Shown here: piece by piece, positions 12,880 to 64,000 of the stretch | Numbering within the stretch: position 1 is the stretch's first letter | Layout: each line of letters opens with the position of its first letter | Assembly (NCBI RefSeq): GCF_032854445.1 | Contig: NC_088295.1 | Coordinates: forward strand, 870,501-934,500 | DNA from: Liolophura sinensis | Taxonomy: Eukaryota > Mollusca > Polyplacophora > Chitonida > Chitonidae | Length of the DNA: 64,000 bases | Reading direction: 5' to 3' | Made by a program: the position numbers and the translations under genes | Notes under the pieces: generated by a model | What the model was told of the DNA's origin: nothing | Database searches by the model: none | The model's input: the letters and a program-made list of their open reading frames with translations, nothing else

Positions 12880-13081
12880 GGCCCGTATTCATAAAGATTC
12901 TTAAGCATTTCTTAACGCTAAAAAATTCTTAAACCCACTAAAAAAATCTTAAATAGCTAACAAATACTTAAGTGCCATTCATAAAAAACTTAACTGTTAA
13001 GAAATTCTTAAATTCTAAGTGTGCCCATGACCACTTTTATCTTTTTCTTAAATTCTTAAGTATTTCTTAAACAACAACAAC

Positions 13082-13422
13082 ATGGCGGCCGCTCAACCAA
13101 ATCGACGCCACTTTAAGGAAAGAAGAGATTGTTTGAACGAATATAATGATAGGGAGCTCTTAGAAAGGTTTCGTCTGGATGCTGCAGGGATTCGGTGTAT
13201 CGAATCACTAGTTAGGGATGACGTTGTAAGTGGATCGAATAGAAATTGTGCACTTACTCCAATGCCGAAAGTGTTGATTACTCTTCGTTTTTGGGCAACT
13301 GGGAAAATGCAGCTATGCAATGGTTATGACATGGGAGTCTCACAGCTGACTGTATCTAGGGCTATCACAGCTACTGTAAGAAGTCTATCTTCAAACCGGC
13401 TAATTGGTCAGTTCATGTTCGC
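13082..13422 (+). pseudogene. Harbinger transposase, N-terminal part
   Basis: Starts with ATG in a MAAAQPNRR context and reads through helix-turn-helix-like sequence typical of PIF/Harbinger transposases (HARBI1 family), including LITLRFWATGKMQ and DMGVSQLTVSRAI. The homology ends at about 13422 after QFMF. The next expected block (FPLT...GAIDGTH) is instead found on the opposite strand at 13850, so the gene is broken by an inversion. It cannot make a complete transposase as it stands. Confidence 0.85.
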
Positions 13423-13850
13423 GATACAAAGCTCAGTTAGGTAATATTTTAATACCTGTTGTAATTTGTTTGAGGGCCGGGTTGTGGCCTGAGGAAAAGG
13501 GTAAGAAGCCAGCGTTTAGATGGGTACCCGCTATCTCCGATCAGATGAGTGTGGATGGGTGTGTGGTGGTTTTCAAAAAGCTGTCTCAGTCCACTTTCAG
13601 CCAGAATTCGAGCGTCATGTGTTGAACCTGGCCATTTTGCGATAATGTCGAGTATGTTGTACTTCGCATCCACAACAATTTGAACGTTATACTGTGGTAA
13701 TGGTGCCGATTAACAAATTCATTTTCATATGTGCTAGGAGCGGTGATTTGTACGTGTGTCCCATCAATAGCCCCAACAATGCCTGGAAACTGGGCAGCAG
13801 CGTAGGACGCTTCCTATTTTTCACGGGTTTCGCGAGCTGTCAGTGGAAAA
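13423..13850 (-). pseudogene. Harbinger transposase, DDE part, inverted
   Basis: Reading the minus strand from about 13850 gives FPLTARETREK, a stop, then AAAQFPGIVGAIDGTHVQI (first catalytic Asp region). After a frame shift follow VVDAKYNI, WPGSTHDARIL and LIGDSGYPSKRW (second catalytic Asp region). The order and spacing match the middle and C-terminal parts of a Harbinger transposase and continue exactly where the plus-strand N-terminal part stops. At least one stop and one frame shift show it is dead. The third acidic residue is not visible. Confidence 0.85.
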
Positions 13851-15110: not shown

Positions 15111-15385
15111 TTACCTACCCGTCGCACACTGCGCTTTCTTGTAGGCCGAGATTTCCGATTTGGTTTGGGAGAAAATATTGTGCCACTTTTTCTCCACTTC
15201 TTCTTGTGACCTCTTGGCGGCTGTGAACGAGGCATTCAACCTGTCTTCCATGTAGTTATTTTTCTTTTCTGAGGTCAATCCTGGACCCAGCTTGCCCCTC
15301 AGTATGTCCTTGTGTTGTGCCATGTAATTGGCGAGGCTCAAACGCTCGTCGTTTGACCATTTCAGCTTTCTTTTCCTTTTTTTTC
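15111..15385 (-). pseudogene. Myb/SANT-like second protein of the Harbinger element
   Basis: The minus strand reads [20 protein letters not shown] followed by a helical region and VEKKWHNIFSQTKSEI, the pattern of the Myb/SANT-like DNA-binding protein that accompanies Harbinger transposases (NAIF1-like). An upstream ATG (at about 15394) is out of frame because of an eight-A tract, so a one-base slip there has probably separated the start codon from the domain. The frame stops soon after CATGR, where GTAGGT could also be a splice donor. Confidence 0.7.
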
Positions 15386-15423
15386 CTCCATGTCAGATTG
15401 TGTTTACATCGAAATGTCGTCTG

Positions 15424-39631: not shown

Positions 39632-42600
39632 GTAAGCATCTCTCCTGGCTTCACCCCATTCTTATCTCTATTATATACACACTGTATATTATGATATGGG
39701 AAAGAATCTGTCAATCGATCTCCAGAAATACTCTATAAGAGAAAAGATCACGATGGTTCACTCTTAAGATCTTAAAAACCTTTACTTTGTGACAACCCCA
39801 CCGCCTTTTTTACTTGCCAAAAGCACCGACTTTTCTACATGACAAAACCACCGACTTTTATAGATGAGAAAAAGCGCTGCATTAAATGAGAACACGCTTG
39901 AACTTTGCAGGAAAAAAAGATTTGGGAAACTGAAGTGCACAAGGATGCCTGGATCCGCGGAGTGTCAGCCGGGGGTTGTGGGAACCCCCCAGATAAAGGT
40001 GAGTACATAACCATGTCTGGGGAGGTGCAACCCGAGGGTTGTGTCCCATCCGCCCCAGTTAATGTCGAGTATATAGCCATGCCCGAGGAGGTGTCTGCTA
40101 GGGATTGCGTGGACGCCCCTACATAAAGATGAGTGGATATGACTGAGTCGGGAGGGGAAGTCCGGCGCGTCAGCCAGGGTGGGGAAGCCCCACATAAAGG
40201 CGAGTATATAGCCTAACGGAGGAAGTGGGTGGAGCCAGTTGGGGTTGTGAGAACTCCAGAGATAAAGGTGAGTATAAGCCTAGCCGGTTGTGTGTGTGCT
40301 GGGTCAGCCGGGGATTGTTGGAACCCCTCAGAAAAAGGTGAGGATATATTCCAGTCTATGGGAGGAGGATGTCAGCCGGAGATTAACCTCACACCCCACA
40401 AGGATTTATCCATGTCTAGGGGGTGTCCGCCGGGAGCTATGGGAGCCCCTTCAGCAGGTGCCCACATCATGACGCGCGTATACGCCTTCAGTAGGCGCCT
40501 ACATTATGACATGTGTATACGCCTTCATTAGGCGCCTACCTTACATTGGTGGTCTGTTCATTTCAACTCGCTGGTTTTGCAATTAGGTTGTGACCTTTTT
40601 GAAATGTTTTTTTTTATCTATTTTACAACCCAATAAAGAAGGATTCCTTTATACCAAAGTCGTCAGGTTTTACGGTGAAGGAAATATCGGACTGTCTGCC
40701 ACACCTTTTCAGGTATAAATGACAAATCATGTCACATGAGGTTATATCCGAATCGGTGGGTGCTAAGAAATACCAAGTGCAAAGTTCCCTAGCAAAAGTC
40801 TAACGTGTTACTTTTTATTTGCAGAGTTGTACTGGAAGAACCCACAGTTCCGGCTGAATCTGGACCCAGCCACTGATGGAAGCACGGTGGTGATATCGCT
40901 GATGGAGGTTATGACTGACAGGAACGCTGACGTCTACATCGGCTTTGATATTTATGAGGTCAGTTCCTTGGTATTCAAATTTGAGGGTAATTTTTTACTG
41001 TACGTCATCTCTGTAATTTTTGTCGTATTGGTCCGAATCGGTCATGTGATTAGGCCATAAGGTTTTCAGTATACCCTATGGTACAAACACACGTGGGGTT
41101 TCCTTGAAACCGTACAGTATACACACACACACTTGAGGTTTTCATGATACTGTACAGTGCACACCCAAGTGAGGTTTCCTTGATACCATACAGTACACAC
41201 CCACGTGAGGTTTTCTTGATACCGTGCAGTACACATCCACGTGAGGTTCTCTTGATACCGTACATCACACACCCACGTGAGGTTTTCTTGATACCCTACA
41301 GTATACACACACCCATGTGAGGTTTTTTTGACATTGTACAGTACACAGCCACGTGTTTGTTGCTCACAGCTGAAACCGGGTTACACCGAAGAACCCCTCG
41401 GAGAGGATTATGAAAGTCGGGCTCTCACCCTCAAAAAGAGAAGTGGGAGCTTTAGTCCTAATCGTGAGGTGACCTTGAGATTTGACCTCAAGCCGGGTAA
41501 TTACGTCATCATCCCGTCTACATACCGTCCTCATCAAGAGTCAGAGTTCTTCCTGAAAATATTCACAGAGAAGAAAACGCGGTCTTGGTAAGTCAGTTGT
41601 CATTGATCAGATGTATTCTAGTTTCCTTTCATACTCCCTTTATTAAAGCCATTCAGTATCAATTCATAGTTAAAATTATTCAACAATTGTTGTCAAACTC
41701 AATTGTTGGCTTATCACCGAACGTTATATGTTGTGTACTGAAGATTGCTTTCACCATGATATTCCTCTTGACCCTAAACATATCTTGATCTGAAGATTGC
41801 TTTCACCATGATATTCCTCCTGACCCTAAACATCCACCTTGTCTGATGATTGCTTTGGCATTATTTCTGTCTCACACTACTCCTAACTCGGATGATTGCT
41901 TTGGCATTATTTCTATCTCACACAACTCCTAACATGGATGATTGCTTTGGCATTCTTTCTATCTTACACAACTCCTGACACACATGATTGCTTTGGCATT
42001 ATTTCTATCTCAAACAACTCCTGATATACATGATTGCTTTGGCATTATTTCTATCTCACACAACTCCTGACACACATGATTGCTTTGGCATTATTTCTAT
42101 CTCACACAACTCCTGACACGGATGATTGCTTTGACATTATTTCTTAGTTAACATTTCATTATGGTTATTATTTTTTTGTTTCTTAAACTTGCAGGGCATT
42201 GAATTGGGACCTGTTTTCGGAGGTAAGCAACTCCCTCTTTTTCTCTTCTTACAGTGGAGCCAAAACGACAATACACCCATACAATAACATTTTACAGATA
42301 ATATTGAAATCTAAAACTTTCATAATTTTGGCGATATAGTTGTAGACTACATAAATGGTTTCATTTTAGATCGTGTTTTTATAAACGGGACTAAACAAGG
42401 ACTTTTGTGTGAATTGGCAGATTGGCGAGGAGAGCACAGAGGACGAAATAGAAGTCTTGTTCACTCGGATTGTCGGTTCGGGCAAAGTTGCGGACGCCGA
42501 AAATCTCCGAGACATCCTGACTAAAGCTAAACACAACAGTAAGTCCTGCTTGCATGACTACAGCTAAACACAGTAGAAAATCCTGCTTGTATGACTCAAA

Positions 42601-45600
42601 GTAAACACAGCAGTAAATCCTGCTTGCATGATTACAGCTAAACACAGTCGTTAGTATTCCTTGCACGAGTTGGGATAGCTTTTCAGGAAGTATTATCACT
42701 ACCAAATCATTCGGAACAACCACACCAAAACACAATGTGATACCCCTTGTGATTATCGCATGCTAACAGAACTTCCATTAGTATACTTTAATACCTTGTA
42801 ATTCTGCCTTTGTCTCCTTTCTCTCCTCTCAGACTGGGGACAAAGTGACGGCTTTTCCTTGGAGACTTGTCGCAGCCTTCTCGCCGCAAATGACGTATCC
42901 TTAAACATCCAAGCGAAGATTTTTATTGATGTCATAGTTAAACGTCTTGTAACTTAGAGAAGTATGCAATATTCGTCACTTTAGCAGTAACAGGTCACTA
43001 AATGCCACGTATTATCAGGGACAAATCCGTAATCGGCCGTGACATCGTAACAATGAGGATGCCTACGTACGTCTCATTCATATAGTCCCAATATTCTGCC
43101 CATTTGAAAGATGATATAAAGCCTCGGTAATACTTTGTGTGATATTGTTCGCTCCAAGAAGAGGATGGTAGTTTGGAAGGGATTGGGACAAACATAGTTC
43201 AGGTTTGGGGAAAACTGTTTTTGATGATCGTTCAGGTATCTTGAACGGTAGTCCTTGGTTTTCCTTTTGGGTGGGCGGGGGTGGATACAACATTCAGTTT
43301 CTGTGAAATCATTTGAATTCCTCCTCACAAAGGTAGCTGACCACCAGTATCAGGAAACATCATCCGGGCATTTTTGTCATAACAATAATTCACATTTATG
43401 ACGCATTTTTCATTGTTTTGTGACCAACTTATATCCTAAATGCGGTATTCCTTAACGTGTACATCAGTTCAAGTCTAGAGAGGGTGAGATAGACGTGGCC
43501 ACTGTGAGAGCTATCTGGAGGGACATTAACACATGGAGGGTAAGACATCACTGTTATGGGGCGGGGAAATGTTGTGAAGGGTTTAAGATTTGTCCAAGAT
43601 TAATGTCCACTGTTACATCCTTCTGACCATTCTTCAACCGTCTCGAAGCGGCCACACCCTGTCACGTTTTATGGACGATTATGGTTAGAGTTACAGTGTT
43701 GTGAGTTTCGGAATATCGGGTCTTATTTCGTGCCTTTTACATCACGTTCCCGTCAACGACTGACCATGTTCACACTGCTTGACGCTCACATTTCTGTCTT
43801 GGACTGGGCGGGTTATTGAAAAGTAAATTAAAAGTTAAAAGCTGTACATCTAGGATGTGTTCCTGATACTCCGACTTGAGAGGCCAGAGGGTACTTGTAT
43901 GTCTAAGTCTAGAAGTAGCCCTCGGATCTATGATTAGGACTGCTGTTCACATCCTGAGATTATACTCCATTCAGTTCACCCAAATGACAGCTGATTCTTC
44001 CTTGTAACCAGAATGCGTACAACACCTTGATGCAAACCAAAGGGAGACCGGTGGACACGTACGATCTGCGAGACCTCTACAAAATAGTAGGTGAGTTTAC
44101 TGCGAGAGTTGTCGAAGTCGTGCGTGATTTTACTACGAGAGCTTTGCAGTGGGTCAGCTGACAGTGAGAGCTGTGATGTGGGTGAGTTTTCTGCCGGAAC
44201 TGTACAAATAATTGGTGAGTTTACTGTCAGAGCCCTATAAAGAATGGATGAGTTTACTCCCAGAGCTGTACAAAAATGGGTGGTTTTACTATCAGAGCTA
44301 TACAAACATAGAAGCCGTGGGTGAGTTTACTGCTAGAGCTGTACAAGACCTGAAAAACAGCTGGTGAGTTTATTGCCGAAGCTGTACAAACAGCTGGTGA
44401 GTTTACTGCCACAGCTGTATAAACAGTGGGTGAGTTTACTGCCATAGCTGTACAAACAGTGGGTGAGTTTACAGTCAGAGTTGAACTAACAGTTGGCTGT
44501 TTTACTTCCTGAGGTATACAAGCGGTGGGTGGGTTTAATGCCACAGCTATATAAACAGTGAGTGAGTTTATTATCAGAGTTGTACAAACAGTGGGTGAGT
44601 TTACTGCCGGAGCTATACAAGCAGTGGATGAGTTTACTGCCAGAGGGCAACAAACAGTGGGTGAGATTATTGCTCGAGCAAGTTTACTGTGAGAGCTGTA
44701 TAAACAGAAGGAACGTTTACCGTGAGAGCGGGGACTTCCGTGGCAAAGTGGTTAGCCATCGCGGCGCAATGACCCAGGAGCCTCTCAACAGGCGGTCTCT
44801 GTGAGCCCAGAATCCTTGTCGGGGGTTTCCTCCATATTGCAGACCAAAAATCAAATAAATGAATAAATAAATAAAGAAAATACCGTGAGAGCTGTACAAA
44901 CATAATGTACCGATTGGTTTATTGTGAGATCTGTACATGCAGAAGGTGGATTCATAGCAAAAGCCGTACAGAACAGTGAGTTTACTGTTACAGATATACA
45001 CACAGTGGGTAGGTATACCGTGGGAGCTGTACTAAACAGTGAGTTTACTGTTACACATGTACACACAGGGGGTAAGTATAACGTGCGAGATGTACAAAAC
45101 ATCGTGTAAGTATTAAGCTGTGCGAACAGTTTGCAAGCAGCGAAGCAAAATGTGCCGCCTTTATAACTTCTCCATGTCATCTTCCTCGGGAAGGATTCAT
45201 TGAGTAATACAACATAAATCTCTTCCTCACCGTCACTGCACGTATATGCTGGGCTTACAAAGTTATATACGTTGGTGTTTTGTTGGCAGGACTCCCTGTT
45301 GGCAAGGACCCGCTGCGTTCCATAGCTCGCCGTTATGGGGGACGATCGGGGCGGATAGCGTTTGAGGACTTCGTGACCAGCTTGGCTCGGATACAGTACA
45401 TCAGGAGTGTGTATTATATAATGCATTTGTTCTTCGTCATAACTCCTCATAATTATTAACCCAGCTACCCATTTTAGGCATTCCTTGATTATATTCATGT
45501 CAAATTCCACACATTAGTATAGATGGCGCATTTACGCGTCAAATCAAATAGTCGGCAAACCATTACCGAAACTATAGCTCTACTTAACACAAATGTCATC

Positions 45601-48467: not shown

Positions 48468-51400
48468 TCAATATGGTCTGAACTTCCTGGCCTGTTTCAT
48501 CAAAGCTATCTTTTGTTTGTCTTCTTCAAACTTCTGTCTTAAGGTGGCAATATCTGGAAAAGTGATGAAAACCTTGAGTTCTGCACATATTATAGCAAGG
48601 AGTTACCCACAGATTATAGCAAGGAGTTACGCACATATTATAGCAAGTCAGGAATACCTATATAAATATTCTCCAAAAACAAAATGTCAGGACAAGTATA
48701 GAGTACACTCAACATATTCTCTTGTGCAAAGTTACTTCAGATCAGGGTTAGAAACTTAAGTTTACTCAATGTCAAACAAATATCACTGTCAGCATCAGAT
48801 CAGCAACAAAATGTCAGGACAAGTATAGAGTACACTCAACATATTCTCTTGTGAAAAATACCTCCGATCAGGGTTAGAAACTTGAGTTTACTCAAGGTCA
48901 AATATCACTGTCAGCATCAGATCAGCAACAAAATGTCAGGACAAGTATAGAGTACACTCAACATATCCTCTTTTGCATAGATACCTCAGATTGGTGTTAG
49001 AAACATAAGTTTACTCAATGTCAAACAAATATCACTGTCAGCATCAGATCAGCAACAAAATGTCAGGACAAGTATAGAGTACACTCAACATATTCTCTTG
49101 TGCAAAGATACCTCCGATCAGGGTTAGAAACTTGAGTTTACTCAATGTCAAACAAATATCACTGTCAGCATCAGATCAGCAACAAAATGTCAGGACAAGT
49201 ATAGAGTACACTCAACATATTCTCTTTTGCATAGATACCTCAAATTGGGGTTAGAAACTTGAGTTTACTCAATGTCAAACAAATATCACTGTCAGCATCA
49301 GATCAGCAACAAAATGTCAGGACAAGTATAGAGTACACTCAACATATTCTCTTTTGCACAGATACCTCAGATCAGGATTAGAAACTTGAGTTTACTCAAG
49401 GTCAAACAAATATCACTGTCAGCATCAGATCAGCAACAAAATGTCAGGACAAGTATAGAGTACACTCAACATATTCTCTTTTGCATAAATACCTCAGATT
49501 TTGGTTAGAAACTTGAGTTTACTCAATGTCAAACAAATATCACTGTCAGCATCAGATCAGCAACAAAATGTCAGGACAAGTATAGAGTACACAACATATT
49601 CTCTTGTGCAAAGATACCTCAGATTGGGGTTAGAAACTTGAGTTTACTCAATGTCAAAAAAATATCACTGTCAGCATCAGATCAGCAACAAAATGTCAGG
49701 ACAAGTATAGAGTACACTCAACATATTCTCTTTAGCATAGATACCCCAGATTGGGGTTAGAAACTTGAGTTTACTCAATGTCCAACAAATATCACTGTCA
49801 GCATCAGATCAGCAACAAAATGTCAGGACAAGTATAGAGTACACTCAACACATTCTCTTTTGTATAGATACTTCCGATCAGGGTTAGAAACTTGAGTTTA
49901 CTCAAGGTCAAACAAATATCACTGTCAGCATCAGATCAGCAACAAAATGTCAGGACAAGTATAGAGTACACTCAACATATTCTCTTTTGCACAGATACCT
50001 CCGATCAGGATTAGAAACTTGAGTTTACTCAATGTCAAACAAATATCACTGTCAGCATCAGATCAGCAACAAAATGTCAGGACAAGTATAGAGTACACAA
50101 CATATTCTCTTTTGCATAGATACTTCAGATCAGGATCAGAAACTTGAGTTTACTCAATGTCAAACAAATATCACTGTCAGCATCAGATCAGCAACAAAAT
50201 GTCAGGACAAGTATAGAGTACACAACATATTCTCTTTTGCATAGATACTTCAGATCAGGATCAGAAACTTGAGTTTACTCAATGTCAAACAAATATCACT
50301 GTCAGCATCAGATCAGCAACAAAATGTCAGGACAAGTATAGAGTACACAACATATTCTCTTGTGCAAAGATACCTAAGATTGGGGTTAGAAACTTGAGTT
50401 TACTCAAGGTCAAATATCACTGTCAGCATCAGATCAGCAACAAAATGTCAGGACAAGTATAGAGTACACTCAACATATTCTCTTTTGCACAGATACCTCC
50501 GATCAGGGTTAGAAACTTGAGTTTACTCAAGGTCAAACAAATATCACTGTCAGCATCAGATCAGCAACAAAATGTCAGGACAAGTATAGAGTACACTCAA
50601 CATATTCTCTTGTGCACATATACCTCCGATCAGGGTTAGAAACTTGAGTTTACTCAAGGTCAAACAAATATCACTGTCAGCATCAGATCAGCAACAAAAT
50701 GTCAGGACAAGTATAGAGTACACTCAACATATTCTCTTTTGTATAGATACTTCCGATCAGGGTTAGAAACTTGAGTTTACTCAATGTCAAACAAATATCA
50801 CTGTCAGCATCAGATCAGCAACAAAATGTCAGGACAAGTATAGAGTACACTCAACACATTCTCTTGTGCACATATACCTCCGATCAGGGTTAGAAACTTG
50901 AGTTTACTCAAGGTCAAACAAATATCACTGTCAGCATCAGATCAGCAACAAAATGTCAGGACAAGTATAGAGTACACTCAACATATTCTCTTTTGTATAG
51001 ATACTTCCAATCAGGGTTAGAAACTTGAGTTTACTCAAGGTCAAACAAATATCACTGTCAGCATCAGATCAGCAACAAAATGTCAGGACAAGTATAGAGT
51101 ACACTCAACATATTCTCTTTTGCACAGATACCTCAGATCAGGATTAGAAACTTGAGTTTACTCAATGTCAAACAAATATCACTGTCAGCATCAGATCAGC
51201 AACAAAATGTCAGGACAAGTATAGAGTACACTCAACATATTCTCTTGTGCACATATACCTCCGATCAGGGTTAGAAACTTGAGTTTACTCAATGTCAAAC
51301 AAATATCACTGTCATCATCAGATCAGCAACAAAATGTCAGGACAAGTATAGAGTACACTCAACATATTCTCTTGTGCACATATACCTCCGATCAGGGTTA

Positions 51401-54400
51401 GAAACTTGAGTTTACTCAAGGTCAAATATCACTGTCAGCATCAGTTCAATGAGAAAAAGCACCAGAAAGCCATTGTCACACTAGTTTCACTGCATTTCTT
51501 GGGAACATGAGACTGCGGAGGGTTAGGGTTAGCCTGAACCAACAGACTACTACATGTGCAGTTCTTGGATATACATATAGTGTTCAAGCATGCATAATTG
51601 CATATCAAATAGTCTGTCAAAGACAAAACATGGAGAAGAAAAAATACTTACGCTCCATTTTAGACTCTCTCAACTGGAATGAATAGAAGTTTAGCAGTTC
51701 CTGAAAATACAATCATTTTCATGAGATTAAAAGAAAAAAAAATTCCTGAAGCACAAAATTTTATAAATCGGCTCTATAAAAATATCAACAAATCAAGCAA
51801 ATGTAATCACACAACGGACAAAATTTCAAAAGAGCTGTAGTTTCTGCATTTGTACAAATAAAAAGGACTGATTATATTAGTAAATGTAACTTATAGTTTT
51901 AATTTATTTCTTTATTTGATTGATGTTTTACGCCATACTCAAGAATATTTCGCTGATACAACTGCGGCCAGCATTATGGTCAGCTGAAACGGGGCAGAGC
52001 CAGAGGAAAACACATGACCATCCGCAGGTTGCTGGCAGACCCTTACAGCTTTAAAATACAACAAAGTCTGAAACAAGGGTCAGCTTGCTGAGGGAATTGT
52101 ACATTGTCTTCCAAACAGTTCACATAAACCGTCACCTTTTCTTTCCGCTTTTTCTTCTCTTTGACATTAATTCGTTTTTCATGGACCTCTGTTCTGGGAG
52201 CACCTTTATTTTTCCCATGTCTGGTCACCGTCACCCAGCCGTCCTCATCTGGAACTCCCTCATTCTCTTTGGCTTTTTGAAGTTCCTTATAATTTAAAGA
52301 GATACTATATTACAATCATTTCATGTAAAGGTATCTATGAAGTATGGCTATCAGACATTAGGTCTGGGTTCAATAAAACCCCTGATTACAGTTTCCTTGG
52401 GCCATTTTCTTTGTTTTGCGTTCTCTGAAGACCACATGTCCTCAACCGATAGTTTAAGCTTAAATTTCATGTGGGGAAATTACATTACAAAATTCAATTA
52501 AATATGAAAACCAAGCAAACCACGAAACAGACAGACAATCGTCAAAAAACAAAAATCACAATGTTGGTCAATGATCAATCCAATGACTTACCAATAAGAG
52601 TTATGAATGCTGGTAACAAACCACTGACAACACCTGTAATACGGTAATGTTAGGACAGGTATTTCTGACTGGAATCCATCACTGAGAAGGTCACTATTGG
52701 GGAGCTGCATCCCCAATAAACTACTTGTAATAAAAGACAATGTATGGTTACCTCCTCTTGGTTCTGGTCAAACTTTGTCATAAAATCCTCAATTTCAGCC
52801 TGCAGCTCCCGGGTGTCTACCCCTGCTCCAACCTCTAAGTACTGCTGCTTCCACTCTGGAACGAAGTAAAAGAGTATGAGCATACCTCAGTAATATACAT
52901 GAACACAAGGGCATAACCAAGAACAAAGATTTGTCAACTGAATGTACATGTAACATATACAGTTCCCTACCTGAAAACAGTTTCCTACCAAAGACAAATA
53001 ATTTGCGGCCAATCCTGTGCTTAACATAAGAAAAGTTTTATTTAATCATACTCCGCAATTTCTATGTAATTTATGGACTCAGTGGCTTGAGTCAGCTCTT
53101 CATCACTGTCTTTCCTTATACGTTAAATGTTTGGGGATTTTCAGCAAAGCCATCAATCTCTTTGATGACTTTTGGGACAGCCAGCAAAGCAATCAATCTC
53201 TTTGATGACTTTTGGGACAACCAGCAAAGCCATCAATCTCTTTGATGACTTTCGGGATAGCCAGCAAAGCCATCAATCTCTTTGATGACTTTCGAGACAA
53301 GCAGCAAAGCCATCAATCTCTTTGATGACTTTCGGGACAAGGAGCAAAGCCATCAATCTCTTTGATGACTTTTGGGACAACCAGCAAAGCCATCAATCTC
53401 TTTGATGACTTTTGGGACAACCAGCGAAGCCATCAATCTCTTTGATGACTTTCGAGACAAGCAGCAAAGCCATCAATCTCTTTGATGACTTTCGGGACAA
53501 GCAGCAAAGCCATCAATCTCTTTGATGACTTTCGAGACAGCCAGCAAAGCCATCAATCTCTTTGATGACTTTCGAGACAACCAGCAAAGCCATCAATCTC
53601 TTTGATGACTTTCGAGACAACCAGCAAAGCCATCAATCTCTTTGATGACTTTCGGGACACGCAGCAAAGCCATCAATCTCTTTGATGACTTTCGAGACAG
53701 CCAGCAAAGCCATCAATCTCTTTGATGACTTTCGAGACAACCAGCAAAGCCATCAATCTCTTTGATGACTTTCAAGACAACCAGCAAAGCCATCAATCTC
53801 TTTGATGACTTTCGAGACAACCAGCAAAGCCATCAATCTCTTTGATGACTTTCGAGACAACCAGCAAAGCCATCAATCTCTTTGATGACTTTCTGGACAA
53901 CCAGCAAAGCCATCAATCTCTTTGATGACTTTCAAGACAACCAGCAAAGCCATCAATCTCTTTGATGACTTTCGAGACAAGCAGCAAAGCCATTAATCTC
54001 TTTGGTGACTTTTCAGAGGAAAAGTTTATGGATGGATAAGTCAGACAAAAATCAATCTGCAGATTACAATGTTGACGACACAAGGACAACCTCACTCACT
54101 TTTGATCCCGGTCAGCAAGGGATGATCGACTGTGGACAGTGTCCGGGCTTTCTCAAACGGGATACTTTTTGCTTTTGCTATGGATCCTGGACTCCTGAAC
54201 ACTACGTATGCTACCCTAAATCCCTTCAAATGTAAACAAAAAAAAAATAGATAAATAATAAAATGTTACATATTTCAAAATCTCAGTAGATGAGCTACAT
54301 TCCATCAACAATTTACATGCACTTAAAAGAATATACAGATTTTTACTAAGAATACACTTATCATAGTTTGAAATTGTTAGCCAAATACAAAACTAAATTT

Positions 54401-57400
54401 CACTGCTAACGCATCAAACCGGGGTTGAAGTTGGTATTTCCCGCCTATAGCTGTGTGGCGTGACTTTTCTCCAACCACATTGTGTCTTTATGCACTGTGA
54501 TATAAACAAGTTGATTAGAAAGCATACACTATTCCTCATCACCAATACATTGTAGCTAGACCATTCATCATGTACATTAAGATGTGCCAAATGTAGTCTA
54601 AAGGTCTTTGGACAATTTTTTAAGGAATCCTATTTCCTCAAACAACCTTGCCAACTTGCCTGCTCGGCCAGGCACAAGCATTTCTATTGCGGATCAGCAG
54701 TGTGTCCAGCATCCTATTTCCTCAAACAACCTTGCTAACTTGCCTGCTCGGCCAGGCACATACATTTCTATCGCCGATCAGCAGTGTATCCAGCATCCTA
54801 TTTCCTCAAACAACCTTGCCAACTTAACTGCTCGGCCACGCAAGTACATTTCTATCGCCGATCAGCAGTGTGTCCAGCATCCTATTTCCTCAAACAACCT
54901 TGCCAACTTGCCTGCTCGGCCAGGCAAGTACATTTCTATCGCCGATCAGCAGTGTATCCAGCATCCTATTTCCTCAAACAATCTTGCCAACTTGCCTGCT
55001 CGGCCAGGCACACGCATTTCTATCACCGATCAACAGTATACCCAGCATCCTATTTCCTCAAACAACCTTGCCAACTTGCCTGCTCGACCAGGCACACGCA
55101 TTTCTATCACCAGTCAGCAGTGTATCCAGCATCCTATTTCCTCAAACAACCTTGCCAACTTGCCTGCTCGGCCAGGCAAGTACATTTCTATCACCAATCA
55201 ACAGTATATCCAGCATCCTATTTCCTCAAACAATCTTGCCAACTTGCCTGCTTGGCCAGGCACACGCATTTCTATCACCAGTCAGCAGTGTATCCAGCAT
55301 CCTATTTCCTCAAACAACCTTGCCAACTTGCCTGCTCGGCCAGGCACATGCATTTCTATCACCGATCAACAGTATATCCAGCATCCTATTTCCTCAAACA
55401 ACCTTGCCAACTTGCCTGCTTGGCCAGGCACACGCATTTCTATCACCAATCAACAGTATATCCAGCATCCTATTTCCTCAAACAATCTTGCCAACTTGCC
55501 TGCTCGGCCAGGCCCGTACATTTCTATTACCGATCAGCAGTGTATCCAGCATCCTATTTCCTCAAACAACCTTGCCAACTTGCCTGCTCGGCCAGGCACA
55601 CGCATTTCTATCACCGATCAACAGTATATCCAGCATCCTATTTCATCAAACAACCTTGCCAACTTGCCTGCTCGGCCAGGCACATACATTTCTATCACCG
55701 ATCAACAGTATATCCAGCATCCTATTTCCTCAAACAACCTTGCCAACTTGCCTGCTCAGCCAGGCAAGTACATTTCTATCGCCAATCAACAGTATATCCA
55801 GCATCCTATTTCCTCAAACAATCTTGCCAACCTCGGCCAGGCACACGCATTTCTATCACCAATCAGCAGTGTATCCAGCATCCTATTTACTAAAACAACC
55901 TTGCCAACCATGAAGGTTAACAAAAACCCATGGGCTTTGTAGTCTAAATTGGCTGCTATAAAGGCCCACCTATGAAGGTTAACAAAAACCCATGGGCTTT
56001 GCAGTCTAAACTGTCTGCTATAAAGGCCCACCTATGAAGGTTAACAGGAGCATGCGGGCTTTGCAGTCTAAATAGGACAAGCGATAAGAGGCAGTTAGTA
56101 GAAAATATATTTCTGTGGGGGACTGAAGTGGAAAATGAGCGTAAACCAGATACACATATATACATTGTGTGCTCCATGATCACATCTGTACACAGAGTTT
56201 TTGATTGATTGTTATCGTGAATGTATCTATCCAGATTTGGAATGCTCCAATAAAATGTGTGTCTTAATTTCAAGAAAGAATTGTTTAAAGAAGAAGGCTT
56301 AAAGCAAGAAGATTTCTACAATATACTAGCATTAATTCACAGTTTGCAGGACAGATCCTTTGTTTCGTGTCCAACTGTTCTATTTTTAAATCCCTAAATG
56401 TTATATGAGTTTCAGTACAAAAAAACATTCTAGGCAAGTGAAAATATTTTTCTGGTCAAGCATTTTTAGGATTCTGGTTGCCCTGATGGCAACAAACTGA
56501 AAACGTTAAGTTACACCACTGCATGTTACAAATATGAATATGAACATGTCTGGCTCTTACGTCACTGTTGGAATGTTTCCTGTATGTCACTACAAAGGTA
56601 GTTTCTTACTTTGACCAGTGCAGACTCCGGAAAATACTTTGATCTGTTAATTACAGGTGGGTCTGATGTTGGCGATGTGTGAAAGTAGACATGCTGGACT
56701 TTTCCACAGTCAGAAAATAGCCTCTTGAAACACTCCTGAAAGGTGTAAGGAAACAGAGGAAGATGATCCACACATCTGATTTTACCTCAACACAATACAG
56801 CAGTATCTTTAGACTTTATCACACAACAGTATCTTACCTCATCACAACACAGCAGTATCTTACCACATCACAATACAGCAGTATCTTACCTCATCACAAT
56901 ACAACAGTATCTTTATACTTCATCACAACACAGCAGTATCTTTATACCTCATCACAACACAGCAGTATCTTACCTCATCATAATATAGCAGTATCTTACC
57001 TCATCACAATACAGCAGTATCTTACCTCATCACAACACAGCAGTATCTTACATCACCACAATACAGCAGTATCTTATACCTCATCACAATACAGCAGTAT
57101 CTTTAGACTTTATCACACAACAGTATCTTACCTCATCACACCACAGCAGTATCTTACCTCATCACAACACAGCAATATCTTACATCATCACAATACAGCA
57201 GTATCTTACCTCATCACAACACAGCAGGATCTTATACCTCATCACAACACAGCAGTATCTTACACCTCATCACAATACAGCAGTATCTTACCTCATCACA
57301 ACACAGCAGTATCTTACCTCACCACAATACAGCAGGATCTTATACCTCATCACAACACAGCAGTGTCTTACCACATCACAACACAACAGTATCTTACCTC

Positions 57401-60400
57401 ATCACAATACAGCAGTATCTTACCTCACCACAATACAGCAGGGTCTTATATCATCACAATACAGCAGTATCTTACCTCACCACAATACAGCAGGATCTTA
57501 TACCTCATCACAACACAGCAGTATCTTACCTCATCACAACAGAGCAGTATCTTACCTCATCACAATACAGCAGTATCTTACCTCATCACAATACAGCAGT
57601 GTCTTACTGCATCACAATATAGCAGTATCTTACCTCATCACAACACAGCAGTATCTTACCTCATCACAATACAGCAGGATCTCATACCTCATCACGATAC
57701 AACAGTATCTTACCTCATCATAATACAGCAGTATCTTTATACCTCATCACAACACAGCAGTATCTTACCTCATCACAACACAGCAGTATCTTACCTCACC
57801 ACAATACAGCAGGATCTTATACCTCACCACAACACAGCAGTATCTTACCTCATCATAATATAGCAGTATCTTATACCTCATCACAACACAGCAGTATCTT
57901 ACCTCATCACAATACAGCAGTATCTTACCTCATCACAATACAGCAGTATCTTACATCACCACAATACAGCAGGATCTTATACCTCATCACAACACAGCAG
58001 TATCTTACCTCATCACAACACAACAGTATCTTACCTCATCACAACACAGCAGTATCTTACCTCATCACAATACAGCAGTATCTTATACCTCATCACAACA
58101 CAGCGGTATCTTATACCTCATCACAACACAGCAGTATCTTACCTCATCATAATATAGCAGTATCTTATACCTCATCACAACACAGCAGTATCTTACCTCA
58201 TCACAATACAGCAGTATCTTACCTCATCACAATACAGCAGTATCTTACCTCATCACAATACAGCAGTATCTTACCTCATCACAATACAGCAGTATCTTTT
58301 ATCTTACCTCATCACAACACAGCAGTATCTTACCTCATCACAACACAGCAGTATCTTACCTCATCATAATATAGCAGTATCTTATACCTCATCACAACAC
58401 AGCAGTATCTTACCTCATCACAATACAGCAGTATCTTACCTCATCATAATATAGCAGTATCTTACCTCATCAAAATACAGCAATATCTTACCTCATCACA
58501 ATATAACAGTATCTTACCTCAGCACAAGACAGCAGTACCTTATACCTCATCACAACACAGCAGTATCTTACCTCATCACAATACAGCAGTATCTTACTTC
58601 ATCACAACACAGCAAAATCTTACCTCATCACAATACAGAAAAATCTTACCTCATCACAATACAGCAGTATCTTATATCATCACAATACAGCAGTATCTTA
58701 CTGCATCACAATATAGCAGTATCTTACTGCATCACAATATAGCAGTATCTTACCTCATCACAACACAGCAGTATCTTATACCTCATCACAACACAACAGA
58801 ATCTTACCTCATCACAACACAGCAATATCTTACACCTCATCACAATACAGCAATATCTTACCTCATCACAACACAGCAGTGTCTTACCTCACCACAATAC
58901 AGCAGTATCTTACCTCATCACATTACAACAGTATCTTACCTCATCACAATACAGCAGTATCGTACCTCATCGCAATACAGCAGTATCTTACCTCATCACA
59001 ACACAGCAGTATCTTACCTCATCACAATAAAACAGTATCTTTATACCTCATCACAACACAGCAGTATCTTACCTCATCACAACACAGCAGTATCTTACCT
59101 CATCACAATACAGCAGTATCTTACCTTATCACAAAAACAACAGTATCTTTATACCTCATCACAATACAGCATTATCTTACCTCATCACAATATGGTGGAA
59201 CACCCACAACAAACAAAGTTCTGTCTTTCGGTTTACAAGAACTGCTTTCTCTGACAGAATGTTCCTTTAAGTACAACTGATGGCAAGCTTTACTTCTTTC
59301 ACTGAATTTCACTTGTATGACTGAAACATCAAAACAGAAAATGTAGATGAATATATTTTATCAATATTTGTGGTACCAGGTTTAATTTTCTACATACAGA
59401 ATTCCATTGGCTTTAAGGCTCAAGAATATTTTGAATATTTACAATTTTACATTCCAAACTATAGGTGAAATATCTACTGTTCAAAGAGGGATATAATGAG
59501 TTAACTTGAACTGTTGTTCCTTTTGTGTGGAGGAAACTAGACTGTGCTTAGCATTAAAGGTGGAAAAAGCATAAAAATTACAAAAGGTTCAGATGAGTGC
59601 AAAAAGTTAGATGTAACTTTTTTCCCCAACTTTTCTTTAAAGAGAAAAAAAAGACACTTCAAAATACTTTTGGTAAGGTGGATACATGTATTTGAGATAA
59701 CCTCTTGGTATTTATTGTCTGTGTAATAATGCCATAAATGAGGATGCATTACATGTTTAATATATCTGCACTAGAATTTGGTCTTCTCATCTACAAATGT
59801 ATTCAACCTGGGGTTTGATCATATTTGTATTTTCAATATCCTTTGGCAGTGCTTTGGCAGGATACTGGTCAAACATTCCTCTTATGCTATTAAGTTGGAA
59901 GGCAGGATGTCTCCAGCTGGAACAGCATGTACTTGTGAGATAACTGACAGCACCAGAAAGCCCAGTCATATTTTTTTTCCATGTGCTCAAAAGGTTGGAG
60001 AAAAGTTGTCAGAAAGAAAAGGTAATTCTGAAGAGTGGTAACTCTCATTTGATCAATGCAGTTGAGAGAGTTATAGAGAAAAACAGCCACAGATGTCCAA
60101 TTTGCAGCGAGGATGATTTATTGCAGTTTCACAGATGCATCACTCCCCCCCCCCAGCAAAAATATACTTTCAAGACTACACTGCTCAAATGAGAGTTACT
60201 ACACTCTAGACAGTTAGAGTTACCCCACATTATTCTGTACATGTAGTTCACTGAAATTAAATGTTGAGGTTTTCAACAATTTCTGATATTTTTATGCCTC
60301 ACTGTTTAATCATTGAATTAAAAAAAACAGTTGGTTCATTCTGCACGGCACTTTGCTGAAAGAAGTGGGCCATTAAATCCACTTTAAAATGGCTGCACAT

Positions 60401-61584
60401 GCCAATTTCTGGTGTGTATTAATGAGAATAGAGCCTTTCTTCCCACTCCTGCAAGTGTAAACCCATTCCCAAATTCAAATATTGTTGAAGTCTACAGAAA
60501 AACTTCTTCGTCACAATAACTCTGTGCGGTCATGGCGAGTCAGGTGTACTAAAATTTCAGCACCATGCACCAAAAGATACAGAAATCAATCTAACAAGAC
60601 ATGATCATGCTTCAAATGGCAAGTTTAGAGATTTCATCAGTCATTATGGATGTAGAATAGACAGAACAATTTGCCCAGCCTGTCAAGCAAGAAAAATCAA
60701 TTCTAAACGCTCCTGCCTAGGTTTGTGGCTATCATGGGCACATCTGTTTCGTTACCCATGTTTTCAGTCCGTGTCCTCAGACAGAATCCAGACTTTGGAT
60801 GCACCCATATTTCGCGCATGCTCACTGCAATTTTACTAAGAGTCAACGCTTTATTAGACATCCTAACTAGTCCGAAATGGATTTAATCATATATGAGTGA
60901 TTGAAAGCATCATTTTCATCAACAGACATTGGTGTGTGCTGCTTTTTTTAGACTGAATTAATGAGACTGACTGGATTCAGTTCAATGATTAAACACTGTG
61001 GTAGGTAAATATCAGAAATTGCTGAAAATAGACCTTGATGTTTAATTATACTGAGTTATTATATGACACCAGGCCAACCAGTCCTGTCTTCTTGCAGTAA
61101 CAAGTACCATTTTTAAAGTCTTTGACATGACCCGACCTGGGTCTGATCCCGGGTTTTATGAGTTCGAGTTAATGCGATTAGGCGAAAGAAGCGGTCTACT
61201 AGAAAAGCCTGTAATAAAACCACGGCACTGTGTAGTGAATCGTACAAGCGTAAAGGCAATACAATGCTGAGAATTGACTGTACCTACATCTAAATTCTAA
61301 CACTGATACAGGTGAACAAAGTTAAATTAACAAGCATTCTACATGTACAGCTGTACAGGTACACATGTAAGCCTAGAAGGTTGAAGGCTAGATGATGATG
61401 GCCATGCTATGCCGATTACAGTGAACAATGACAGACAACATCAATATCACTTGTTTAGCAATATACATATGGTAGTTCTGGACAAGCCTGTTTAACCTGT
61501 CCTAAGGAAAACAGTTAAATCTTTGCTAAATTGACCTGTAAATCCTTGGATGATTACAACACCATGTGCTTCTGAGTTTGCCAT
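48468..61584 (-). CDS. RRP7A: Ribosomal RNA-processing protein 7 homolog A, 8 exons
   Basis: Minus-strand exons in order: 61536-61584, 59181-59320, 56610-56735, 54100-54223, 52752-52855, 52136-52285, 51652-51700, 48468-48553. All junctions are GT-AG and all phases agree, giving 828 bases or 275 residues; human RRP7A has 280. Matching signatures are VKFSERSKACHQLYL, RTLFVVGVPPYCDE, GFRVAYVVFR, GVPDEDGWVTVTRHG, KELLNFYSFQLRESKME and the C-terminal MKQARKFRPY. RRP7 proteins act in the nucleolus in the small-subunit processome for 18S rRNA maturation. Residues about 50-145 form the RRM-like domain; the C-terminal part is a basic helical tail. The ATG at 61584 gives MANSEAHG and lies 16 codons before the conserved start. 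Introns hold four large satellites. The 52136 exon uses a weaker donor, GTGACG. Confidence 0.95.
48575..51440. repeat. 127 bp satellite in the last RRP7A intron
   Basis: About 22 units of 127 bases (core AACAAAATGTCAGGACAAGT), some with 3-5 base deletions. Units fall into subtypes by a variable CTTTTGCATAGATACC/CTTGTGCAAAGATACC segment. A small 27 base triplet (TTATAGCAAGGAGTTAC) lies at 48585-48650, next to the final exon. Confidence 0.95.
51905..52044 (-). mobile_element. 5'-truncated SINE
   Basis: The minus strand shows the SINE 3' half: CCTGCGG-like ACCTGCGGATGGTC, CCATAATGCTGGCCGC, then AATATTCTTGAGTATGGCGT and an ATCAAATAAAG tail. It lies in the RRP7A intron between the 52136 and 51652 exons, in the same orientation as the gene. 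Confidence 0.8.
53140..54010. repeat. 40 bp minisatellite in RRP7A intron 4
   Basis: About 22 copies of a 40 base unit (core AAAGCCATCAATCTCTTTGA) of almost constant length. It ends about 90 bases from the exon at 54100. Confidence 0.95.
54635..55890. repeat. 84 bp satellite in RRP7A intron 3, open in three plus frames
   Basis: About 15 copies of an 84 base unit (core CATCCTATTTCCTCAAACAA). As 84 is 28 codons and the unit lacks stops, the three plus frames are open for 444, 369 and 347 codons. The plus strand is antisense to RRP7A. No splice or promoter evidence for an antisense gene is visible, so I list it as a repeat. Confidence 0.95.
55908..56075. repeat. 62 bp tandem repeat, 2.6 copies
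   Basis: Units of 62 bases sharing CATGGGCTTTGCAGTCTAAA and CACCTATGAAGGTTAACA lie beside the 84 bp array in RRP7A intron 3. Confidence 0.9.
56785..59180 (-). repeat. 26 bp minisatellite grown from the RRP7A exon 2/intron boundary
   Basis: On minus, exon 2 ends CCATATTGTGATGAG and the intron begins GTAAGATAATGCTG. The next 2.4 kb is about 90 copies of TATTGTGATGAG|GTAAGATACTGCTG, that is 12 exon bases (Tyr-Cys-Asp-Glu) and 14 intron bases. Most units keep GAG|GTAAGA; a minority have GAG|GTATAA with a 2 base gain. The array starts at the genuine donor with no spacer. A TAA lies seven bases into the intron in the exon frame, so use of any later donor would truncate the protein. Confidence 0.95.
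59545..59850 (+). repeat. Dispersed repeat copy A in RRP7A intron 1
   Basis: The block at 59762-59850 (GCACTAGAATTTGGTCTTCT ...) matches 62940-63020 on the same strand at roughly 80 percent by eye. The block at 59545-59740 matches 63110-63310 on the opposite strand (shared ACCTCTTGGTAT-type segments). It is an unclassified interspersed repeat or a rearranged segmental copy. Confidence 0.65.
60030..60208. mobile_element. MITE-like element with terminal inverted repeats
   Basis: GTAACTCTCATTTGA at 60038-60052 is the exact complement of TCAAATGAGAGTTAC at 60185-60199, and similarity extends to about 30 bases with small gaps. The inside contains an open frame with HRCPICSEDDLLQFHRC and a run of ten C. 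The size suggests a short non-autonomous DNA element, family not recognised. Confidence 0.55.
60489..60839 (+). other. Cysteine-containing open segment of unknown origin
   Basis: 116 codons open between stops, without an initiating ATG at its start, containing LCGHGESGV, TRHDHASNGKFRDF and CRIDRTICPACQARK. The CxxC pair with flanking Cys looks like a zinc ribbon, and a similar CPxC motif lies 400 bases upstream inside the MITE-like element. It may be a decayed transposon or captured exon in RRP7A intron 1, antisense to the gene. No family is recognised. Confidence 0.3.
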
Positions 61585-62614
61585 TTTGTTGATTGCCCTC
61601 TCCTCTGTGGCGGATGTATCCAACATTCCCCGATAATGTGGATATAATACCGTAACGCTCCGCACATCGGAGAATGAGATGCAGACTATCCGTTGCATTG
61701 TGGGTATGATCTAAATTCCTCTCCTGCAACAACAACAACAAAAACAAACTGGCACTTGCTGGTGAAGATCAGTGACGTTTGGCTTCTTCTCTTGTTCTAT
61801 CCACCCTTCCATCGCAGATGGTTTCTCTTACCAACTTTATAAGAAGGTAATGTATTGTTTACAGTAATTTTTGGACAGCAAAAACGTAATTTTTGTGTTG
61901 GCAAAAATAAATACAGGAGGCAGTAATGTTAATCAGTTATGCACTGAGACTGTTTCATGTTCATAAATCTGAGTGTAACTGGGCAGACTCTCCCTTGATT
62001 CTGCTGCTTAGCAACAGTGTAGTAGTTAGATGAATGAGTCCAGAGAATAAATGTGTAACTCAGAACACCTAACGATAAAAGAAGGCCTATCACGTGCTGT
62101 CCTGCTCATGTAGTTACTCTGGTGTCCTTTTGACTCCGATCAGTTTCTGTGCGTAAGTATTACCAGTATATTCCAGTGAGTAGCCCTGAAAGACTTCAAC
62201 TTCTTTTCTACACATGCCTAGGCCGAGATTGTTCTGACTTTAATTTTGGCAAAATTTTGTCCTGCCACATTGGCCCTAAACCAACGACAGAGAGCACTAC
62301 ATTAAAAAAAAGTGATGCAAGTACTTGCCCTTACACTGTTATAAGTTAATGTATACAAGAAGATTAATCGACAGTGCCATTTATTGATGTAGAAAGCCGC
62401 TTAATGAAGTTCTTGCAAAATGAGCGCATTCTAGGGGAAAGCATTTCAGTTATCATGACATTGCGGAACATGTAGTATGTGTGACATGTACTTAAATGAG
62501 GACTCAGAATATGGTCTGCTTTTAGGTACTGACTGACAGACAAGGCCTAGTAAAACTAACAAAGCTTATGGTGGACTCAACCATAAATCCTTGTGAACTT
62601 TCAGCAAGTTGTAG

Positions 62615-62838
62615 TACAACCAGCTTAGCTCAGTGATCTGGGTGCCTCTCATCGATGCAGTCCAGCAAGTTCAGGTCATGTTGGCTTCTTCTCCAGTAGT
62701 ATGTTGGAAAGTCTGCCAGCAACTTGTGCGTGTGGGTTTCCACAGAGTAGTTTCCTTCAACCACAATGCTGTCATCATATGAGCAAAGTATTCTTGAGTA
62801 CATGTAAAACATCAGTTAAATGAATAAGTAAATAAGTA
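62615..62838 (+). mobile_element. Old diverged SINE
   Basis: Shows CTTAGCTCAGTGATCTGG, GGTGCCTCTCATCGATGCAG, ACCACAATGCTGTCATCATA and AGTATTCTTGAGTACATGTA in the same order as the SINE at 12564, followed by an AAATGAATAAGTAAATAAG tail. It is clearly older than the other copies. Confidence 0.8.
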
Positions 62839-62857
62839 TTATTATGTAAGATACTGA

Positions 62858-62926
62858 GCACTGTATTGTGTAGAGGTAAGATACTGCTGTATTGTGATGA
62901 AGTAAGATCCTGCTGTATTGTGATGT
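62858..62926 (+). repeat. Stray fragment of the RRP7A exon-2-derived 26 bp repeat, opposite orientation
   Basis: Two to three units of the form TGTATTGTGATGAAGTAAGA occur on plus, the reverse orientation of the main array at 56785-59180. It lies directly after the SINE tail and before dispersed copy B. Confidence 0.8.
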
Positions 62927-62939
62927 TCAGTAAATATTT

Positions 62940-63312
62940 TTGCACTAGAATTGGCCTTTTCACACAACAAATGTGTTTAACCTGGATTTTGACCATATTT
63001 ATATTTTCAATATATTCATAAATATTATCATAATTCAGAATAAATGCATGTGTTTGGATATAAACAATTTACATTCAAATGAATTTATTAGGTATGTGTC
63101 ACATAGTTATTTAGAACATTATTATGTAAAGACGATATATACCAAGAGGTGGTCCCAAATACCCACCATAATAAAATATTTTCAAATACCCTTTTCTCCT
63201 GGAAGAAATAAAAAATTGAAAAAGGCCATATTTGCAAATAAGTTTCATCTAATTTTGACATCATTTTGATTTTTTCTCCTTCTTCAATAGTTCTTGTCAG
63301 CTTTCTTTTCAT
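62940..63312. repeat. Dispersed repeat copy B
   Basis: 62940-63020 matches 59762-59850 in the same orientation; 63110-63310 matches 59545-59740 in reverse orientation. The relative inversion of the two blocks between the copies suggests a palindromic element or a rearranged duplication. Confidence 0.6.
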
Positions 63313-63775
63313 GACAAACTTCCATTGACCATTCTGATATCAGACTATGCATTGTGAGAAGATCTATTTTGCTTGTCATACTGGAGAATTCAGACCATAC
63401 TTCATGAAGATTAGTTCCTAAACTTGCCTGCGTTCCTATGTCACAGCCTGAGGCTTATTCTGATATGTGAAAGGGATACCTGGGGTTTTAATTACTGATG
63501 CTTTGTGCGTGTAATTAGTGTAATTAGTACTGCAGACTGGGCTATAAACTATGCACAGCTATTGATTAATTCTTGTTCCAGGTTTTCATAATGCAGTTTG
63601 ACATAAATTCCAGTGTTTAGGAACACCTGTAAATTGTACTTCGATTAATTATAAGTATGCCTTATTGCCAACTAGTAAATAGTTTGTGTTTTCTGTGCAG
63701 GAAGATGTTGGAGAGCTAGCGGTGTAAGCCTGTGTGTGAAGGGAGACTACTCTGCTAACAGCACCAGGTGACCAC

Positions 63776-63885
63776 ATGAGCGAGCCTATGGTGTTCAGCG
63801 CTCAGAGAGAGGTACAACTACGCTTTCTCTGTCCGGAAGATATCGGTGATGTGAAGAAGCTGTGTGCAGAGTGGTTTCCTATTGA
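63776..63885 (+). CDS. NAA60: N-alpha-acetyltransferase 60, first coding exon (partial)
   Basis: An acceptor at 63700 (TTTTCTGTGCAG) opens an exon whose ATG at 63776 reads MSEPMVFSAQREVQLRFLCP and then DIGDVKKLCAEWFPIE, ending at the donor GA|GTGAGTAA after 63885. This matches the N-terminus of NAA60 (vertebrate LRLLCHDDIDTVKHLCGDWFPIE). NAA60/NatF is a Golgi-associated GNAT-fold enzyme that acetylates N-termini of membrane proteins facing the cytosol. The remaining exons lie beyond the window. The match spans only 36 codons but is colinear and ends at the family-typical FPIE motif. Confidence 0.85.
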
Positions 63886-64000
63886 GTGAGTAACCTCATT
63901 GATGATAAAAATATCATGTCCATGCACTTGGCAGCTTATCACTTATCCAAAAACATGGTTGCCACTCATCTTATTACCACATCTGTGTGATGACTGGGAA

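Follow-up and report, generated by a model that had tools for sequence, protein, structure and literature searches.

A minisatellite of about 90 units spans the exon 2 donor of RRP7A in the chiton Liolophura sinensis

Introduction

Minisatellite-like repeats that lie across exon-intron boundaries, at donors as well as acceptors, and that carry AG/GT in many of their units have been described in lancelets as mirages, in the genes for Adh3, the globins BflGb6 and BflGb9, PGBD5 and troponin C (PMC3087553, PMC3902484). The edge units of these arrays are less homogenised and regular splicing was reported; BflGb6 has 6 units in one haplotype and 3 in another, and it was proposed that mirage units may turn into genuine exons, with new introns as a result (PMC3087553). 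We describe an array of this kind in a 64,000-nucleotide stretch of the genome of the chiton Liolophura sinensis (contig NC_088295.1, positions 870,501 to 934,500; hereafter the window, in whose own coordinates positions are given). It is a 26-bp minisatellite that starts at the end of exon 2 of the minus-strand gene RRP7A and runs through intron 2.

Two other systems are related. In tandem-duplication intron gain, known from ATP2A1, fission yeast and potato RdRp, a duplicated AGGT segment makes the splice signals, and in two fission yeast genes a 24-bp AGGT segment is present in several copies, four or two of which are spanned by an intron (PMC4974935). In human segmental duplications, minisatellites at exon-intron boundaries may form novel introns (PMC2812944). 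Apart from these two systems, no such repeats outside lancelets were recognised among the literature matches listed, which were covered mostly at the level of title and opening lines, subscription papers and preprints being outside the scope.

Results

The array at the exon 2 donor of RRP7A

The host gene, already named RRP7A in a first-pass annotation made from the letters of the window alone, was identified by the match of exon 2 to the human protein (7mq8; E 4.6e-10 over 44 residues that end at VPPYC) and by a deposited L. sinensis RRP7A-like protein, which matched the spliced query with 100% identity along 99% of that query. When the five exon frames were scanned against Pfam, one scored above the threshold set for the RRP7 C-terminal family and two matched RRP7 families below theirs. 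The other two had no Pfam match, and one of these had human RRP7A as a match among PDB sequences (E 0.0038). At full identity the exon 2 stretch occurs once in the assembly; this is a single assembly with haplotypic duplicates purged.

The existence of an array built from an exon end and its donor was confirmed. The unit consists of the last 12 bases of exon 2 (TATTGTGATGAG) and the first 14 bases of intron 2 (GTAAGATACTGCTG), and the 26-bp length and roughly 90 copies first proposed were found in agreement by Tandem Repeats Finder (56782-59192, period 26, 90.6 copies) and by wraparound alignment, which gave 91 junctions made up of 90 units and a 7-nt stub. The array had been said to begin exactly at the donor; its link to the boundary holds, but it starts 12 bases inside the exon, at 59192. 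Unit length was 26 bp in 67 and 28 bp in 16 of the 91 copies, and a TA-insert variant was present in many units. The junction read GAG|GTAAGA (the bar marks the exon-intron border) in 53 copies, GAG|GTATAA in 17 and otherwise in 21, so that the statement that most copies keep GAG|GTAAGA is right as a majority, but one of only 58%. Downstream of the authentic donor, 89 copies agreed with the junction in at least 17 of 28 positions and 87 of these kept the GT. The last, degenerate donor, GAG|GTAAAATC, lies about 50 bp from the intron 2 acceptor.

The sequence GAGGTAAGA occurred 54 times in the end of exon 2 and intron 2, the authentic site included, as against none in the rest of the minus strand and one on the window's plus strand; this concentration excludes chance. 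An exact genome-wide search with one unit returned 14 places, all within the array. Scoring of the units with a donor model, suggested at first pass, was carried out with a donor frequency table, and 54 downstream copies equalled or exceeded the authentic donor in score. The edge units were on average further from the medoid unit than the middle ones (2.9 versus 2.1 edits), and 44 distinct sequences were counted among 84 parsed units, with no clear drop of unit-to-unit similarity with distance along the array. Divergent edges and the spread of a variant such as the TA insert are expected of minisatellite turnover.

In the deposited RRP7A protein VPPYCDE is joined to ECFKRLF, which corresponds to the first donor and to the exon 2 boundary as originally drawn. 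The in-frame TAA reported seven bases into the intron was also present, at +7 to +9 in the first unit, and use of a later donor leads to a stop after two codons. The TAA therefore leaves only the first donor useful in RRP7A. The first-pass statement that no donor but the first yields a full protein stands for this gene but not for CCT3 (below), where downstream donors are in frame. In 11 aligned animal RRP7A proteins the P-P-Y of VPPYC-x-E was invariant, and the C and E nearly so. Since the YCDE residues encoded by the repeated exon bases are conserved in animals, the end of exon 2 is likely the source of the unit and the array its derivative.

Mirage junctions in a calpain gene

Arrays of the same anatomy were found at three donors of a calpain gene in the window (Table 1). 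At donor 39999, four copies reach 17/28 identity and two keep the GT, and of the sites listed after donor 44091 only 2 reach 17/28 identity to the authentic junction in ungapped comparison. The deposited calpain-9-like isoform X2, a database model that also lacks one exon of our calpain gene model, uses the first donor at all three junctions. It includes an in-frame segment of the third array, and the 26 residues encoded there occur neither in a second L. sinensis calpain nor in one from Haliotis. This model suggests that a mirage unit was taken up as an exon and makes the insert a candidate exon birth.

Table 1. Positions of the RRP7A and calpain features within the window
Feature	Position	Strand	Description
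RRP7A exon 2	59320-59181	-	last 12 bases TATTGTGATGAG, encoding YCDE, form the exon part of the repeat unit
RRP7A intron 2	56736..59180	-	2,445 bp, nearly all filled by the array; donor GT begins at 59180
RRP7A exon 3	56610..56735	-	ECFKRLF..., start at 56735
26-bp minisatellite	56782..59192	-	91 junction copies, 53 with GAG|GTAAGA; 28-bp TA-insert variant spread
Calpain mirage, donor 39999 (CCAGATAAAG|GTGAGTAC)	39963..40400	+	degenerate units of ~64-71 bp, five downstream copies
Calpain mirage, donor 42539 (AAACACAACA|GTAAGTCC)	42518..42647	+	37-bp unit, 3.5 copies
Calpain mirage, donor 44091 (TACAAAATAGTAG|GTGAGTTTAC)	44070..45101	+	degenerate 33-bp units, 16 downstream junction-like sites listed
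In-frame mirage segment of deposited calpain-9-like isoform	44994..45071	+	78 nt (26 residues), flanks ACAG| and |GTAAGT
Inverted stray piece of the 26-bp array	62861..62925	+	65 bp, 2.5 units, up to 94% identity to array segments

Recurrence in the genome

In total, 4 of the 22 donors and none of the 21 acceptors of the window were positive. As a sample picked regardless of repeats we used the exons of the CCT chaperonin family, taking 40 of 50 matches and omitting three long open frames, three C-terminal matches and four for reasons of space. The same anatomy was seen in 3 of the 40 donor-side stretches, the presence of a donor being confirmed for not every stretch. Two of these donors belong to a gene that we take to be CCT3, one with a 66-bp unit containing 44 exon bases and one with a 60-bp unit; the third, in presumably CCT5, has a 109-bp unit with about 93 exon bases. 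Both names follow the human proteins, the search itself giving the family only. Past the donor, the frame of the 66-bp CCT3 array remains open over 144 codons, and the score of the authentic donor is equalled by 10 of those downstream. A protein search with CCT3 named no chiton protein among the matches listed. One CCT array lies on another contig (C8) and another far off on the window's own contig.

A mirror-image ladder was found in one of the 40 acceptor-side stretches, 20 of which held only 140 bp of intron. This is locus L102 in CCT3 (C8:53412442-53412842, minus strand), where ten near-identical 3' splice-site ends occur in 41-bp units ending like TGATGTATTTATGTACAG and the last copy is the true acceptor. 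Window and CCT sample together gave 7 positive donors among 62 (22 + 40) and 1 positive acceptor among 61 (21 + 40), and a bias of the ladders towards donors is no more than suggestive. At all seven donors the authentic site comes first and, in the sequence covered, only the intron side holds copies. In the six besides RRP7A the exon part of the unit is about 16 to 93 bp, and 3 to about 16 copies follow the authentic site. A further CCT3 candidate (L055) was rejected and is not counted: its array begins some 10 to 13 bases beyond the donor and has no exon bases, and its junction failed the point test described below.

For a background, 4,000 points placed at random in 190 kb of genome sequence were scored for a right-hand copy only, which was found at 57 points with a reach of 360 bp and at 92 with a reach of 2,500 bp. 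Without RRP7A, positive donors (6/61) exceeded this background (p 0.0002 and 0.003, respectively). The three CCT junctions passed the point test exactly, with right-hand values of 95, 78 and 100 and left-hand values of 20, 18 and 18. An initial background test within the window was uninformative because more than one third of it is array.

Genome-wide matches to AGGTAAG triples numbered 2,182 as against 1,040 for the reversed pattern, and CAGGTAAGT pairs 370 as against 237. These are matches and not loci, the listed part of them being dominated by few arrays, and we give both counts little weight. A very long 36-bp array at C1:93392582-93394859 carries CAG|GTAAGT in many units.

Repeat content and neighbouring features

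Listed tandem arrays account for 23,124 of the 64,000 bases of the window, and arrays with a period of at least 10 for 13.2% of 190 kb of other genome stretches. In the repeat table of the genome paper, 'Other (simple repeat, microsatellite, RNA)' accounts for 0.08% and unclassified repeats for 14.04%; its main text has no word beginning with 'tandem' or 'satellite', and the passages covered leave the present arrays unmentioned (PMC11068029). A correction of the species name has been published (PMC12441733).

Intron 1 of RRP7A contains a dispersed repeat (59554-59684) with 39 further matches at 71-77% identity among the 40 that were scored in the genome. The stray piece of the array (Table 1) lies some 1.3 kb upstream of the start codon of RRP7A, between this gene and a plus-strand gene that we assume to be NAA60-like and that gave no Pfam match; close to the piece is a stretch resembling, by eye, the intron 1 repeat. 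Elsewhere in the window are a DDE_Tnp_4 transposase-like frame (13452-13709, minus strand, within 13052-13813) and a Myb/SANT-like frame (15114-15392, minus strand), which to our mind resemble a Harbinger element. An Rfam scan of 51000-64000 gave no match.

Discussion

The RRP7A array is very probably a boundary-spanning minisatellite, or mirage, produced by tandem duplication of the splice junction and subsequent expansion, and tolerated through use of the exon-proximal donor. A small tandem duplication of the 26 bases around the junction, 12 from exon 2 and 14 from intron 2, would have been the first step. Slippage or unequal exchange, to which the pattern of the units points, probably then raised the number to about 90 copies and spread variants such as the TA insert, with the edges less homogenised. 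If the exon-proximal donor is spliced, as the deposited protein indicates, the other copies would stay intronic and copy number would hardly touch the protein; it is this choice of donor that would make array length nearly neutral. RRP7A transcripts spliced at a later donor, with their early TAA, would probably decay, and purifying selection may remove arrays whose later donors win. The same process probably acts at other donors of the genome, a unit occasionally being taken up as an exon, as the calpain isoform suggests. The first-pass annotation was partly borne out. It was right on the gene, the unit, the boundary and the reading frame; the recurrence in the genome and the class of mirages were missed.

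A wider proposition is possible, although we hold it only tentatively. Boundary minisatellites might be a genome-wide mode of gene-structure evolution, in which several percent of donors carry decoy ladders, introns grow from their 5' edge, units are occasionally exonised as in calpain, and the model of intron and exon gain put forward for lancelet globins runs in a mollusc.

Several points weigh against the main reading. The support for the splice junctions comes from deposited protein models and not from RNA. The background test used a threshold chosen once the hits were known, and the CCT stretches had first been scanned over many offsets; taken alone, the CCT sample (3/40) is borderline (p 0.019 at 360 bp, 0.064 at 2,500 bp), and two of its three positives share one gene. 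The difference between donors and acceptors was not significant (p 0.06, or 0.11 without RRP7A). Among six donor-ladder loci examined elsewhere, five had no obvious exon at the edge, the exception being L040 (C1:1841500-1842900), where the ladder follows an exon-like segment of about 43 bp. Finally, a strong donor was present in 9 of 67 array consensuses against 6.4 expected from shuffles, which gives no support to a general enrichment of donors in minisatellites; most arrays are therefore ordinary and a minority lie on donors.

Among the alternatives, it is unlikely that the downstream donors are used often enough to yield copy-number-dependent isoforms. The open frame and equal-scoring donors of the 66-bp CCT3 array favour such use, as do the 78 nt of mirage included in the deposited calpain isoform, but in RRP7A the frame stops at once, the deposited RRP7A and calpain proteins take the first donor at every mirage junction, and lancelet mirages were reported not to disturb splicing (PMC3087553).

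Still less probable is a functional ladder, in which at least 50 strong U1 sites would hold U1 small nuclear ribonucleoprotein (snRNP), slow splicing, regulate RRP7A or block premature polyadenylation. Protection of the last kind is known as U1 telescripting. The 54 downstream copies scoring as high as the authentic donor or higher by the frequency table would suit this explanation, and so would the pooled cells, in which donor-core positions deviated from the unit less often than the others (25/816 versus 104/1,525, p 9e-5). However, column by column the donor core was no more conserved than the rest of the unit (Mann-Whitney p 0.36), the pooled test gave p 0.09 without column -11, the most polymorphic one, and the weak GTATAA form occupies 17 of the 91 junctions. 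An earlier column count, circular at +1 to +6, was left unused. As there was no per-column difference and the pooled signal was lost without column -11, there is no clear indication of selection for or against the decoys, and selection on the donor cores was set aside as not clearly supported. The effects first proposed, namely titration of U1, slow splicing and copy-number-dependent truncation, found no support in column conservation or in the protein models, which use the first copy.

It is very improbable that the exon end was supplied by an existing intronic satellite or that the match is coincidental. The genome is rich in minisatellites, as the 190 kb sampled show, but all 12 exon bases match and encode residues conserved in animals, and six further donors are alike with exon parts of varied length. 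An assembly artefact is the least credible explanation, since, for all that HiFi coverage was only 14x, the copies are diverse and the pattern recurs on contig C8 and far away on the window's contig.

Studies of splice-site choice usually let a few sites compete within a construct. One natural intron with more than 50 donors scoring as high as the real one offers a test of donor choice, and published RNA-seq of digestive gland, foot, gill, gonad and heart, five tissues of L. sinensis, could reveal whether the exon-proximal site wins. RRP7A, in which the frame breaks at once, and CCT3, in which it continues, would together separate splice choice from the decay of faulty transcripts.

Compared with known systems, the lancelet mirages are the precise precedent. 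As in lancelets, the RRP7A unit holds exon and intron bases (12 + 14) across a junction used by the deposited protein, and the donor is kept in most units, with GT in 87 of 89 downstream copies. The first-donor joins of the deposited RRP7A and calpain models agree with the normal splicing reported for lancelet mirages. The chiton belongs to the phylum Mollusca and is not a cephalochordate, a difference in the known distribution of mirages and not in their definition; its RRP7A ladder is also much longer than those of the lancelet globins and, unlike in the lancelet cases, one deposited protein, the calpain model, contains an apparently exonised unit. In tandem-duplication intron gain a new intron is formed from exonic copies, whereas in the chiton the array enlarges an intron from its edge, and intron bases are part of the repeat unit; the calpain insert, in contrast to such intron gain, would be a gain of exon. 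The repeats in human segmental duplications have 30-bp units and 4 copies on average in recent primate paralogues, and the excerpted account does not describe donor ladders. What appears to be new is thus the same kind of repeat in another phylum and a much longer ladder, which widens mirages from lancelets to molluscs and hints that any minisatellite-rich genome may grow them.

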